Shown here one piece after another: positions 1,367 to 5,815 of a stretch of DNA of 5,815 bases. The DNA is from a bacterium (GTDB taxonomy: Bacteria > UBA9089 > CG2-30-40-21 > SBAY01). A program made the translations under genes and the position numbers. Position 1 is the stretch's first letter. Every line of letters begins with the position of its first letter. The notes under the pieces were generated by a model. That model did no database searches and had not been told where the DNA came from. It saw only the letters and a program-made list of their open reading frames with translations. The DNA lies in the NCBI GenBank assembly GCA_040757115.1, contig JBFLYA010000235.1:1-5815 (forward strand). The letters run 5' to 3'.

Positions 1367-2647
1367 ATGGTTAAAAAAGTATCTTTATTAGGGTTGATTG
1401 GGTTATTGTTAGTAGTAGGAACTTCTGGCTATGCAGAGGTAAAACCAACATGGGAAATAGGGGATGCGGTATTTAGGCCCTTGCGTTTACCTCTTGTTGG
1501 GGGCTTTGGACATACTGGAATATACTGTTGTAGTCAGTCGGATAACAATAAGGTTAGTATTGGCACTGAATCCCCTTATCCCATTCAGATTACGGATAGT
1601 GATCTTAAGCATTCAATGATTCAAGGAAATGAAAAGGAGCCACCTCCTCCTTATAAGCCAGTGGATTTTGTTCCTTTAGAGTATGTCCTCCATGGAATGA
1701 TGCCCTATGGTGCGTATAATAACGGGGGTTTAAGTGCTTACCAGCGGAGAAAGATTGTTGCAACCGCTTATTTACAAGCAGTGAAGGGAGATTGTGTGTA
1801 TGAAGAGAAGAATCCAAATAGAATAAAATATCCTGCAACTAATGAAAATGGATGGAGAGGTTCTTTTAGATGTGATGGGTTTGTAGAATATTGCTATGAG
1901 CAGGTTAAACCAGGAGGGTTCTTTACTGATAGTGATGAGAAAGAGTGTTGGTCGAAGTTGTTGGATTTAAAATATGCTTACGGGATATGGCCTAAATTTT
2001 ATCCAACCGCATTAATGAAAAAGATGAAGAAAGCAGAAGCCAACCTCCCTGAGATAAAGAAGACGGAACTGTATAAAGATGGAAAGCCCCTTCTAGAGAT
2101 ATTTCCTTGGAGTAAAGTCACAGGAGCAATTGAGATTAAAGTGAAGGTAATGGATGGAGCAAGTGGCTCTGGAATTGATCGAGTAGAATTCTATTATACT
2201 GACCAAATATTAATTAACTTAATTGATAAAAAAGATGAAGATAAAGATGATGAAGGGATAATGGAAGAATATAGTTGTAATTGGGATGTCAGTAGTATTT
2301 CTCAATATCCTATGTGGCGGGCCTACGCTCGAGTATATGATCGTGCAGGAAATATGAGTGAAGGGGAAAAATTTGTAATTGGTAATTCTTATGATATTAC
2401 TGATGGCTTTTTTGTTATCATCGACCATACACCACCCCAGGTAGCCAGTACCACTCCTTCAAATGGGGATACGAAGATATATCTTGGTAAAAAGATCAGA
2501 GTTACCTTCTCTGAAGAGATGGCGACGGAAACGATTAATTCGGATACAATCCTGGTTAATAATGGTGCTATTGTTGGCTCGGTAACTTATGCTGAAGATT
2601 TAAGGACGGCTTTTTTTGTGCCTGATGAGGCTTTAGAAACAGTGTAA
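1367..2647 (+). CDS. Secreted permuted NlpC/P60 (YiiX-like papain fold) protein with Ig-like domains, gene A
   Basis: A 426-residue exported protein. Residues 1-23 form a signal peptide (basic MVKK, hydrophobic core, cleavage likely after SGYA). Next comes GDAVF (32-36) and G-H-T-G-I-Y with His49, then FRCDGFVEYCYE with Cys169. In normal NlpC/P60 enzymes the Cys motif precedes the GD-x-x-F...H motif; here the order is reversed, as in the permuted YiiX/LRAT-type papain fold. That family contains hydrolases and acyltransferases acting on peptides, peptidoglycan or lipids; the substrate here is unknown. A likely third polar position is Gln86 (HSMIQ), where gene B has Glu. Residues about 232-345 are an Ig-like domain (GSGIDRVEFYY ... 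YDRAGN). Residues 357-426 begin a Big_5 domain (PPQVASTTPSNG, VTFSEEM) that stops about 25 residues short. The stop lies at the start of a sequence shared with gene B. It probably forms an operon with the upstream HEAT gene. Confidence 0.85.
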   Translation: MVKKVSLLGLIGLLLVVGTSGYAEVKPTWEIGDAVFRPLRLPLVGGFGHTGIYCCSQSDNNKVSIGTESPYPIQITDSDLKHSMIQGNEKEPPPPYKPVDFVPLEYVLHGMMPYGAYNNGGLSAYQRRKIVATAYLQAVKGDCVYEEKNPNRIKYPATNENGWRGSFRCDGFVEYCYEQVKPGGFFTDSDEKECWSKLLDLKYAYGIWPKFYPTALMKKMKKAEANLPEIKKTELYKDGKPLLEIFPWSKVTGAIEIKVKVMDGASGSGIDRVEFYYTDQILINLIDKKDEDKDDEGIMEEYSCNWDVSSISQYPMWRAYARVYDRAGNMSEGEKFVIGNSYDITDGFFVIIDHTPPQVASTTPSNGDTKIYLGKKIRVTFSEEMATETINSDTILVNNGAIVGSVTYAEDLRTAFFVPDEALETV

Positions 2648-2679
2648 GTAAGGGAAAATGGGAAATTTTTGTTGACTTG
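2642..2679 (+). repeat. Junction repeat, copy 1 (stop codon plus promoter region)
   Basis: From the last sense codon of gene A (GTG at 2642), 24 bases (2642-2665) are identical to 5676-5699 at the end of gene B. After an indel, a further 13 bases (2667-2679, ending GTTGACTTG) are identical to 5711-5723. This copy has two 8-base units, GGGAAAAT (2652-2659) and GGGAAATT (2660-2667), and five Ts before the G preceding the -35 box. The repeat supplies both the stop codon of the upstream gene and the promoter of the downstream gene. Confidence 0.85.
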
Positions 2680-2701
2680 ATTGATGATTAAGGAGTATAA
2701 T
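2672..2701 (+). promoter_or_regulatory. Sigma-70-type promoter of the HEAT lipoprotein gene
   Basis: -35 TTGACT (2672-2677), 18-base spacer, -10 TATAAT (2696-2701). A/T tracts just upstream could act as an UP element. A start site about 7 bases after the -10 would fall near 2708, only about 3 bases before the ATG at 2711, giving a nearly leaderless transcript. The same layout recurs at 5716-5744. Confidence 0.8.
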
Positions 2702-2710
2702 ATTTGTAAT

Positions 2711-4426
2711 ATGAAAAAAAGAGAATGGTTAGGGGTTAGTTTAATACTGGTAATTAGTTCTCTGATGCTTGGGTGTATCCAAGGAAGTAAGAAGTTAGAA
2801 GTTGGAAGTAGAGAGGTAAAGGAAGAAAAAGTAGTCCAATCTCAGGTAAAATTAGATACAAAAACACCAGCATCTAACAAAGAACAAATAAAGGTAGAGT
2901 CAGAAAAAACAGCTCAATATGTTGAGTCTGGATTATCAAAAGAAGAGAGAAAAAAGATTAGGAAGAGAATATTGGGAATTGTTGATAAATTTGAGAAACT
3001 TTCTACAAGTGAAATAATAGAAGAGCGGTTAAAGAAAGGTGTGCCAATACCAGAAGAAAAAGCAGAGAAAGAAGCAGTAGAAATAGAGCAAATGTTGAAC
3101 GAGCTGATAAGTCTTGGGAAAACAAATATCTCCCCTTTGATAGAAGTAATCAAAGATAAAAAGAGAAATGCAACATTTCGAGCGGGCTTAATACAAATAG
3201 TCGCCAGTCAGATAAAAGATAAAAGGATGATTAACCCTTTGATAGATATTGCTAAAGATATGAAAGAGGATATAGAGGTTCGCAATACAGCAGCCTCTGC
3301 GTTGAAAGAATGGTTTGGCGAAGAAGCACCTGAGGTTAAAGTTAGCGAAAAGGAGATAAAAAAGATTGAGCAGAAGGTGAGGAAGATAATTGATAGTATA
3401 GATAGGAAGTGTAAAATGATAGAGGAAGTGGGGAAGAAGAGGGACTATGATGATCCATTCTGTGACACAATGATATTGGATTTGATGATAGCAAGAGATA
3501 TAGAGAGCCTGACGACAATAAGTAGAGAAGGAGCACCATTCATGATAGAAGCAATGAAGGATAAAAATAGACATTGGTATTGTAGAATGCAGGTGTTTAT
3601 GATACTAATAATAGATAGTAAGGATAAGAGGGCAACTAAGCCAGCAATGGAGATATTAAGGGATAGAGGTGAAAATAGTAGGTTTCGAGGTGCGATAGTG
3701 TGTACATTATCTAGTAATGGTTTTGTTAAAACTGAAGATATACTGGGAGTATTAAAGGATGAGAGAGATGGTTGGGTTCGAACTGAAATAATAAGAGGGT
3801 TAGGGTTTCTAGGAGATGAAAAAGCGATAGAGTCATTAGTAGAGGCATTAGATGATAAGGATGAGTTAGTGGCAGTAACCGCTGTTCGGGGATTAGGAGA
3901 GATAGGTGGAGAAAAGGTAGTAGAGCCGTTAATAAATGCTTTAAAGAACAATAGACATGCGTTAGTTCGAGCAAATGCATCTAATGCTTTAGCTAATACG
4001 AAGAGTAAGCGGGTAATTAAGCCGTTGATAGAGAACTTAAAAAAAGGTGATATGTTTGCCGCTAAAGCTTTAGGGGAGTTAGGGAAAGAGATAACAGGTG
4101 AGGATAAAGATAGGATAGTGGAGGCGCTGATTAATAATGGATTAGAAATATACAAAAAGTATCCTGATTGGTTGACATGGAGTGCTGCTACCAATGCTTT
4201 GGGCGAGATAGGAGATAAAAGAGCAGTTGAGCCATTATTGGAAGCACTTCAAAGTGAAGCAGTAATTAAGAGGCATCCTGAGTGTATAATAGAAGCATTA
4301 GGTAAAATAGGTGATGAAAGAGCAATTGAACCTTTAGAAAAGGCATTAAAAGATGAAAGATATAAAAATGCAAAGAATAATTTAATTTATGTACTACAGA
4401 AACTTACAGGTAAAAAATACAAGTAA
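2711..4426 (+). CDS. HEAT-repeat lipoprotein
   Basis: A 571-residue predicted lipoprotein. The start at 2711 gives a compact signal sequence, MKKRE plus a hydrophobic stretch, ending in a lipobox L-M-L-G-C with Cys22 as the lipidated residue. In-frame starts at 2681/2684 only lengthen it and overlap the promoter. Residues about 23-110 are a Lys/Glu/Gln-rich linker. HEAT-like helices fill about 128-202, a charged helical segment follows, and a long HEAT array covers about 260-571. The array has clear units of 31 residues such as GDEKAIESLVEAL, GGEKVVEPLINAL, GDKRAVEPLLEAL and GDERAIEPLEKAL. HEAT arrays bind proteins; no enzymatic motif is visible. Membrane anchoring suggests a scaffold or partner on the envelope. 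It is a paralogue of the broken HEAT gene at 2-1326 and, like it, precedes a permuted NlpC/P60 gene. There is no ribosome binding site at a normal distance (AAGGAG ends 15 bases upstream), consistent with a leaderless mRNA. Confidence 0.87.
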   Translation: MKKREWLGVSLILVISSLMLGCIQGSKKLEVGSREVKEEKVVQSQVKLDTKTPASNKEQIKVESEKTAQYVESGLSKEERKKIRKRILGIVDKFEKLSTSEIIEERLKKGVPIPEEKAEKEAVEIEQMLNELISLGKTNISPLIEVIKDKKRNATFRAGLIQIVASQIKDKRMINPLIDIAKDMKEDIEVRNTAASALKEWFGEEAPEVKVSEKEIKKIEQKVRKIIDSIDRKCKMIEEVGKKRDYDDPFCDTMILDLMIARDIESLTTISREGAPFMIEAMKDKNRHWYCRMQVFMILIIDSKDKRATKPAMEILRDRGENSRFRGAIVCTLSSNGFVKTEDILGVLKDERDGWVRTEIIRGLGFLGDEKAIESLVEALDDKDELVAVTAVRGLGEIGGEKVVEPLINALKNNRHALVRANASNALANTKSKRVIKPLIENLKKGDMFAAKALGELGKEITGEDKDRIVEALINNGLEIYKKYPDWLTWSAATNALGEIGDKRAVEPLLEALQSEAVIKRHPECIIEALGKIGDERAIEPLEKALKDERYKNAKNNLIYVLQKLTGKKYK

Positions 4427-4432
4427 TTAATT

Positions 4433-4573
4433 TCTAATACTTTTGCAAAATGAAGGTTAGTCGTCATTGCGGGGAGCGAAACGACAGAGTAATCTTGCTG
4501 TCTTCTAACTACTGAGAGATTGCTTCACTATCGCTCGCAATGATAAATTATCCTATTTTGCATAAATCTAATA
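4433..4573. mobile_element. MITE-like palindromic element with target-site duplication
   Basis: The element body is 4440-4566 (127 bp). Its ends are CTTTTGCAAAAT (4440-4451) and the inverted TTTATGCAAAAT (4555-4566), matching at 10 of 12 positions. TCTAATA flanks it directly on both sides (4433-4439 and 4567-4573), as a 7-bp target duplication. Inside lies a second, GC-richer inverted repeat: TCATTGCGGGGAGCGAA (from 4464) against the complement of TCGCTCGCAATGA (4531-4543), extended by AATCT/AGATT. This core resembles a palindromic repeat I recall in many environmental bacterial genomes. There is no coding capacity, so any movement would need a transposase elsewhere. It sits in the HEAT-peptidase spacer. 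Removing it plus one duplication leaves a 38-base spacer, near the 40 bases in the other cassette. Confidence 0.78.
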
Positions 4574-4598: not shown

Positions 4599-5681
4599 AT
4601 GTATAAGTTAAGTAAAAGCAAGGTATTAGGATTAACCATCTTTGTAATATTAATAGCCAGAGGGGATTTGTTTGCCAAGACAATTCCAGATTGTGAGATA
4701 GGAGATGCTGTATTCAGATATAAGCAATACGAAGATATCTTAGGAGTAGGATTCCACCATGCCGGGATTTACTTTTGCTCACATTCTAAAGGTGATGAGG
4801 TCTATGTTCAAACAGAAGATCCATATTACATCAAAATTACAGGTTCTGACCTTCAACATAGTGTAATTGAGGCAGTTGGATATGGTGGTCCAATAAGTTG
4901 CCAACCATTTGTTGAAAGGTATATTATCTACCCCGGTGGGTATAAAGGGGCATATAATAGTGGTACTTTGGATGCTTACAAACGCAGGAAGATCATTGCC
5001 GCTGCATGGGAGCAGAAAGGGAAAAAATATGCTACTGGAAATCCAAGACATCCGTTCAATGAGAAACCAACAGACATTAAGTCTCCTGGCAACTCCTTTA
5101 GATGTGATGGCTTGGTAGAGTATTGTTATGAGGTAATACAATATCGAGGTATAGATAGTGGAGGGAATCCCTGTGATAATTATGGTTTCTTCTCATCATG
5201 GGAGGAGAAGAATTGTTGGTTTTTTGGAATACCGGGGATAATCCACGCTGTATCAGCTGCTTTCTTCGTTAAAAAAGATGCATTTTACCCTAAGGCATTA
5301 TTGGCAAGGATGAAAAAGGCATCAGGAAAGCAACTTAGTACTTCCCCTCAAATCTTTAGTTTTGATTTGTATAAAGATGGAAAAGAGATTGCAGAAGGTG
5401 GGTTGCTTAAAAAGAATGATGTCGTGACTGTCAAAACTTTTGTTACTGATGGAGATAAAGGCTCTGGTATCGATCGAGTAGAGCTTTATTATCAGGAAGT
5501 CTATGGACAATTACTTGGTAAAGGGACTCTTACTTTAATTACTACTTTAGATGATGATGAAGATATTGGAAAAGAATCCAGCTATGATTGGACTGTACCT
5601 TCAACTACTATTACATTTTTAGATTGTGAAGTATCTGCTGTGGCTTATGATAGAACAGGAAACACAATCAGAACGGTGTAA
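4599..5681 (+). CDS. Secreted permuted NlpC/P60 (YiiX-like papain fold) protein with one Ig-like domain, gene B
   Basis: A 360-residue paralogue of gene A. The signal peptide is residues 1-26, with cleavage likely after DLFA. The catalytic order is again His before Cys: GDAVF (35-39), F-H-H-A-G-I-Y with His54, HSVIEAVG with Glu91, and FRCDGLVEYCYE with Cys169. Glu91 matches the acidic third residue common in YiiX-like proteins, so B looks the more complete enzyme; A has Gln at this place. A conserved tail follows (FF...EK-x-C-W...FYP-x-A-L...MKKA), also seen in A, with a longer insertion in B containing an extra Cys. Several additional cysteines could form disulfides after export. Residues about 250-360 form an Ig-like domain (GSGIDRVELYY, acidic loop LDDDEDIG, YDRTGN) that ends directly at the stop; the Big_5 segment of A is absent. 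The stop is part of the junction repeat. The substrate is unknown. It is probably co-transcribed with the HEAT lipoprotein unless the inserted element interferes. Confidence 0.86.
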   Translation: MYKLSKSKVLGLTIFVILIARGDLFAKTIPDCEIGDAVFRYKQYEDILGVGFHHAGIYFCSHSKGDEVYVQTEDPYYIKITGSDLQHSVIEAVGYGGPISCQPFVERYIIYPGGYKGAYNSGTLDAYKRRKIIAAAWEQKGKKYATGNPRHPFNEKPTDIKSPGNSFRCDGLVEYCYEVIQYRGIDSGGNPCDNYGFFSSWEEKNCWFFGIPGIIHAVSAAFFVKKDAFYPKALLARMKKASGKQLSTSPQIFSFDLYKDGKEIAEGGLLKKNDVVTVKTFVTDGDKGSGIDRVELYYQEVYGQLLGKGTLTLITTLDDDEDIGKESSYDWTVPSTTITFLDCEVSAVAYDRTGNTIRTV

Positions 5682-5723
5682 GTAAGGGAAAATGGGAAAA
5701 AGGGAAATTTTTTTGTTGACTTG
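5676..5723 (+). repeat. Junction repeat, copy 2 (stop codon plus promoter region)
   Basis: Second copy of the sequence at 2642-2679. It starts at the last sense codon of gene B (GTG at 5676). It has three 8-base units, GGGAAAAT (5686-5693), GGGAAAAA (5694-5701) and GGGAAATT (5702-5709), where copy 1 has two. It has seven Ts instead of five, so it is 10 bases longer in total. It ends in the same GTTGACTTG. Confidence 0.85.
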
Positions 5724-5744
5724 TCTAAAATAAAAGAGTATAAT
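5716..5744 (+). promoter_or_regulatory. Sigma-70-type promoter of the third cassette
   Basis: -35 TTGACT (5716-5721), 17-base spacer, -10 TATAAT (5739-5744). The ATG of the next gene at 5754 is 9 bases after the -10, exactly the distance seen at 2701-2711. The bases before the -10 (GAGTATAAT) also match the first promoter, although the spacers otherwise differ. Confidence 0.82.
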
Positions 5745-5753
5745 GGTAATATC

Positions 5754-5815
5754 ATGGAATTAGTAATCAGTAAGCGGTTGTATTTAGTCTTTAGTGGATT
5801 ATTGATACTGTTGGT
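5754..5815 (+). CDS. Start of a third-cassette gene, probable exported protein (3' partial)
   Basis: ATG at 5754 opens a frame to the end of the window. It encodes a basic start (MELVISKR) followed by a hydrophobic stretch (LYLVFSGLLILL), which looks like a signal peptide. Position and promoter layout match the HEAT lipoprotein gene at 2711, so another HEAT-repeat lipoprotein is the best guess. No lipobox or HEAT unit is inside the window, so this rests on context only. No ribosome binding site is seen at a normal distance. Confidence 0.6.
   Translation, partial: MELVISKRLYLVFSGLLILL

Follow-up and report, generated by a model that had tools for sequence, protein, structure and literature searches.

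Half copies of a dispersed, probably MITE-like hairpin repeat cap two truncated paralogous genes

Two paralogous genes of a bacterial contig end in the same piece of DNA, which raises the questions of what this piece is, whether it closed both genes, and whether it also starts transcription of the genes that follow. The window, which is the entire contig C235 (5,815 nucleotides; source genome of 4.3 Mb in 462 contigs), carries genes A and B among HEAT-repeat lipoprotein genes (Table 1), and a search of it against Rfam gave no match. The 24 bases GTGTAAGTAAGGGAAAATGGGAAA are present at 2642 to 2665 and at 5676 to 5699, and alignment of the two sites from 2638 and 5672 gives 28 nt at 96% identity. 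In both genes, the shared bases begin at the last sense codon, GTG, and continue with the stop codon, TAA. The codons in front of them come from different domains, with gene A ending in the middle of Big_5 (Pfam PF13205; the match covers profile positions 1 to 74 of 105) and gene B ending with the Ig-like region that precedes Big_5. In these observations, the initial annotation of the locus was right. Its interpretation, which was a recombining or mobile junction module that truncates genes and restarts transcription, or gene conversion between cassette ends, is partly supported and proved only half right.

Table 1. Positions of genes, repeat arms, and promoters in the window
Feature	Coordinates	Strand	Remarks
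Gene A	1367..2647	+	426 aa, ends in mid Big_5; frame open 1340-2647; shorter than homologues
Left arm 1	2642..2665	+	L-type end GTGTAAGTAAGG...; half copy without right arm or outer tip; last codon GTG and stop TAA of gene A
Promoter TTGACT-N18-TATAAT of HEAT lipoprotein gene	2672..2701	+	Sigma-70-like; outside repeat
HEAT-repeat lipoprotein gene, between A and B	2711..4426	+	
Gene B	4599..5681	+	Paralogue of A, ~40% aa identity; ends one domain before A's end
Left arm 2	5676..5707	+	Prolonged by AAGGGAAA like other copies; half copy; last codon and stop of gene B
Promoter TTGACT-N17-TATAAT preceding next HEAT lipoprotein gene	5716..5744	+	Also in C249; in C299 without repeat

Homologues of gene A were aligned, as the initial annotation had proposed, and they pass the truncation point. 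Open frames of 1482 residues in G001 (same genus), 1457 residues in G002, and 2502 residues in G007 run straight through the position of A's stop and extend about 1,000 to 2,000 residues beyond the cap. The long gene of G007, which is 85% identical to gene B over the final 150 coding nucleotides, also reads through the stop point of B. Because the homologues continue past the cap, both A and B are truncated relative to them, as judged from the predicted frames. The region in G001 looks like the same locus without the cap, since its neighboring HEAT gene is 79 to 83% identical to the first HEAT gene of the window. The missing 3′ part of A was sought across the genome and does not lie behind another arm; only distant fragments were retrieved, on contigs C154 and C216.

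Two further features of the window were noted. The first HEAT gene is divided into two frames (2 to 607 and 664 to 1326, with the break at 567 to 664), and a frameshift within the run of G near 570 is the probable cause; both halves lie within one frame in G001 (L153, 1890 to 3203). The gap between the second HEAT gene and gene B contains, at 4443 to 4563, an inverted-repeat stretch, cgtcattgcggggagcgaaacgac ... gcttcactatcgctcgcaatgat, that resembles another MITE-type repeat and is presumably of a type familiar from other environmental bacteria.

The 24 bases are not confined to these two sites. The genome-wide search suggested in the initial annotation retrieved 24 copies with at most three mismatches in the source genome, and the reversed control retrieved 0. 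When the 110 bases around the A junction were used as the query against 18 relatives, 12 had a match that takes in the repeat, one of the 12 only in part, and the many short matches began almost always at one query base, the GTG. Of 41 genomes, 12 contain the degenerate pattern GTGTAANNAAGGRAAAANGG; these 12 all belong to the same phylum, and the 22 genomes outside the phylum have none. The control for this pattern gave a single match, in G017. A scan of named genome contigs at higher stringency returned 31 stretches, with records labeled WOR-3 and Ratteibacteria among them. Some of these record names look like mislabeled bins, because the same records are the relatives already found. The sampled copies are those that match the search patterns, and all fractions given here hold for this sample. 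The annotation had named as grounds for rejection a repeat that is absent elsewhere, together with homologues that end alike without it; neither is the case.

The dispersed copies and the reversed control at zero exclude chance. The reading by which the 24 bases would be a fortuitous likeness of purine-rich intergenic DNA with GGGAAAA runs draws on the GGGAAAA-like units of which the arm is made, and it meets an exact GTG boundary, control matches of zero, a distribution mostly within one lineage, paired L and R ends, and target duplications. Refuted by the controls, it retains practically no probability.

Complete copies of the repeat are inverted repeats of the form GTGTAA...TTACAC, in which 75 to 554 bp separate the facing ends. 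Their consensus is GTGTAARTAAGGGAAAAnGGGAAA ... TTTCCCnTTTTCCCTTYRTTACAC, and two end types are distinct, L (GTGTAARTAAGG) and R (GTGTAAYRAAGG). Six complete copies fold as long hairpins, with z values between -3.3 and -6.6 and no shuffled sequence folding as well, whereas the two stretches in the window form no hairpin (z of -1.2 and +1.8). A right arm or an outer tip was sought within the window without success. Since both copies there are left arms only, without a tip, they are remnants and not intact members. The pairs found in many genomes are thus short, multicopy, noncoding, and bounded by terminal inverted repeats, as MITEs are, and the window copies themselves do not have both ends.

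Beyond the arms, the outer tip GTAASCGTTCAG is found at 75 of 141 sampled ends (37 of 82 L ends and 38 of 59 R ends). Among 48 facing pairs with outer tips, 18 are flanked by a target duplication matching at 7 or more of 8 bp, compared with a mean of 0.9 and a maximum of 5 for shuffled flanks; no such duplication is visible at the half copies in the window. About half of the L ends are without the outer tip, the inner GTGTAA hairpin often standing by itself, and inspection by eye of the DNA directly flanking copies without the tip gave no obvious target duplication. Contig C277 contains a single degenerate IS66 transposase gene that has a GTAACCGTTCAGG tip on either side and no target duplication, and the search for an intact transposase bearing these ends gave none. 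Target duplications of 8 bp have been published for IS66 members (PMC3281130), and ISDge4, an element of the ISBst12 group, has the end GTAACTGCTCAGCA and an 8-bp repeat (PMC12898284). The outer tips, the 8-bp duplications, the likeness to ISDge4, and the IS66 remnant of C277 fit a family of MITEs with IS66-type (ISBst12-like) ends, the assignment to this transposase family being a deduction from the sequences. Like MITEs derived from IS66/ISBst12 elements, the repeat has outer tips resembling the ISDge4 end (PMC12898284) and 8-bp target duplications, and its complete copies are too short to encode a transposase. Unlike them, the copies in the window are half elements that have no outer tip, and the inner GTGTAA hairpin often lacks it too.

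The outer tip is also associated with other elements. At L011, L017, L121, L125, L126, and L183, elements of ~197 to 354 bp share this outer tip and have 8-bp duplications without a mismatch, with no GTGTAA beside the tip. The sequence TAAGCGTTCAGGTG is present at 221 places in the source genome with at most one mismatch, which makes it far commoner than the GTGTAA arm. It is often located ~108 to 121 bases from contig starts, and several MITE families with such tips seem to break the assembly.

Taken with the truncation of the host genes, the dispersal, hairpins, and target duplications of the repeat point with good probability to the 24 bases being the arm of a nonautonomous MITE-like element of this phylum, half copies of which cap A and B. 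An arm that lands within a gene or at its end would close that gene. The window shows no direct trace of insertion by transposition, since it has no outer tip, right arm, or target duplication.

The initial annotation also attributed to the repeat the promoter of the next cassette, and this part did not hold. The promoters lie 3′ of the 24 bases and outside them, the paralogous cassette in contig C299 has TTGACTTGATTTAGATGAAGGAGTATAATGG ahead of its HEAT lipoprotein gene and no repeat in front, and promoter-like sites are not enriched beside the repeat (6 of 165 sampled ends downstream versus 6 of 172 upstream). On this evidence, the predicted promoter is that of the downstream HEAT-repeat lipoprotein gene and is independent of the repeat. 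Because the C299 promoter does without the repeat and no enrichment of promoters is observed, the repeat would not restart transcription and has, by this comparison, been joined in front of a promoter that already existed. The same data bear on a reading of the repeat as a stop-plus-promoter or terminator module at cassette ends, selected for ending one gene and starting the next. Such a module would be consistent with the position of the repeat at A, at B, and in C249, where a stop lies immediately before it and a strong promoter immediately after it, and with the hairpins of complete copies near gene 3′ ends; given the promoter without repeat in C299, the equal counts on both sides of the sampled ends, and the window copies without a hairpin, it is highly improbable. 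What stands of the proposed junction module is therefore its mobile or recombining nature and the truncation of genes, in line with the dispersed copies, the homologues of A that run on, and the hybrid contig C249, and what falls is the restart of transcription.

The two junctions appear to differ in history. The A junction, with the same residues and the same base of the repeat, recurs in contig C249, and a short remnant of it is preserved downstream of a murB-like gene in another genus (G002, contig G002:C71). Because of these recurrences, the A junction is taken either to predate this species or to have moved between lineages. In C249 (L025), a short palindromic stretch, GGTCAGACC ... GGTCTGACCCCAATAGTTCC, immediately precedes the start of the A-type remnant and is apparently a further repeat beside the pseudogene.

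At the B junction, the uncapped gene of G007 reads ACGGTAAGTAAATTC and B reads ACGGTGTAAGTAAGGG, with GTAAGTAA common to both. This shared stretch suggests that B was truncated through microhomology recombination with an A-type junction at GTAAGTAA; B has two extra bases relative to G007, for which a simple crossover within GTAAGTAA does not account. Downstream of B, 144 nt match C249 at 98.6% identity, and in C249 an A-type end stands in front of this stretch. At the contig end, the last 127 nt of the window (5689 to 5815) are exactly identical to contig C249, which is the size of an assembler overlap, and therefore the sequence that follows B's junction is not certain.

An exchange between cassette ends, as the initial annotation envisaged, agrees with C249, where an A-type end adjoins B-type downstream DNA. 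A single cassette end, duplicated or spread by gene conversion, could be the whole explanation, with the 24 bases as a copied end and no mobile element involved. The 144-nt match and the A-type front of C249 favor this, as do the HEAT-A-HEAT-B-HEAT cassettes, which look duplicated. It would account for how the arm reached B, but not for the nature of the arm, and the same 24 bases are present at dozens of unrelated, cassette-free places in other genera and phyla. Owing to these dispersed copies, copying of a cassette end is refuted as a full explanation, in which role it is unlikely, and survives as one step of the history that includes the MITE-like arm. In that history, an ancestral A gene would have been joined to a left arm within Big_5, with loss of its 3′ part. 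The A junction, the promoter, and the HEAT gene may then have been copied together, giving rise to the arrangement in C249 and the remnant in the other genus. A long B gene would have recombined with an A-type junction at the 8-nt microhomology, which would have truncated B and placed the same arm and HEAT cassette behind it.

Stops are donated by the arm to other genes as well. The first bases of the arm contain stops in two of the three frames (GTG TAA; TGT AAG TAA), and among 165 sampled ends, 10 close a frame of at least 150 codons within the first ten bases of the arm. Eight gene families are represented, namely, A, B, SMC, GltB-like, HsdM-like, SbcD-like, and two others, with names given by reading of the sequences. 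The SMC arm is common to G000 and G001, and the SMC gene of G002 ends a few residues away without an arm. Because arms lie mostly just 3′ of genes, a tolerated position rather than targeting is the simplest reading of their placement. It is also conceivable, at fairly low probability, that the inner GTGTAA hairpin moves separately from the IS66-type tip, as a mobile unit in its own right. Such a unit would either favor gene 3′ ends or be placed there by selection, donate stops to conserved genes (SMC, HsdM, SbcD, and GltB-like), and have repeatedly reset C termini in the phylum.

Hairpins at gene 3′ ends, just after stop codons, are known from the REP/BIME palindromes. The repeat resembles these in lying directly behind stop codons and differs in its longer purine/pyrimidine arms, its GTGTAA...TTACAC ends, and its outer tip, which comes with a target duplication. 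The bacterial hairpin MITEs known to fuse with genes, among them the Correia/Neisseria elements, RUP, the Rickettsia palindromic elements, and ERIC/RU-1, resemble the present repeat in being short palindromes that lie mostly between genes and are sometimes joined to a host gene (PMC2229807). They have other sequences, and in the present repeat, it is the tip that stops the gene, in two of three frames, with no in-frame peptide added. A literature search found no description of this repeat, and the family is apparently undescribed so far. It represents a new family within a known kind of element, the MITE-like hairpins, with a tip that acts as a ready stop codon.

These results correct the reading of the repeat as a promoter carrier. 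The repeat family shapes the genomes of a poorly known candidate lineage, where it sits at many assembly breaks, and an element tip that is a stop in two of three frames gives a mobile hairpin a simple way to set the C terminus of a host protein.
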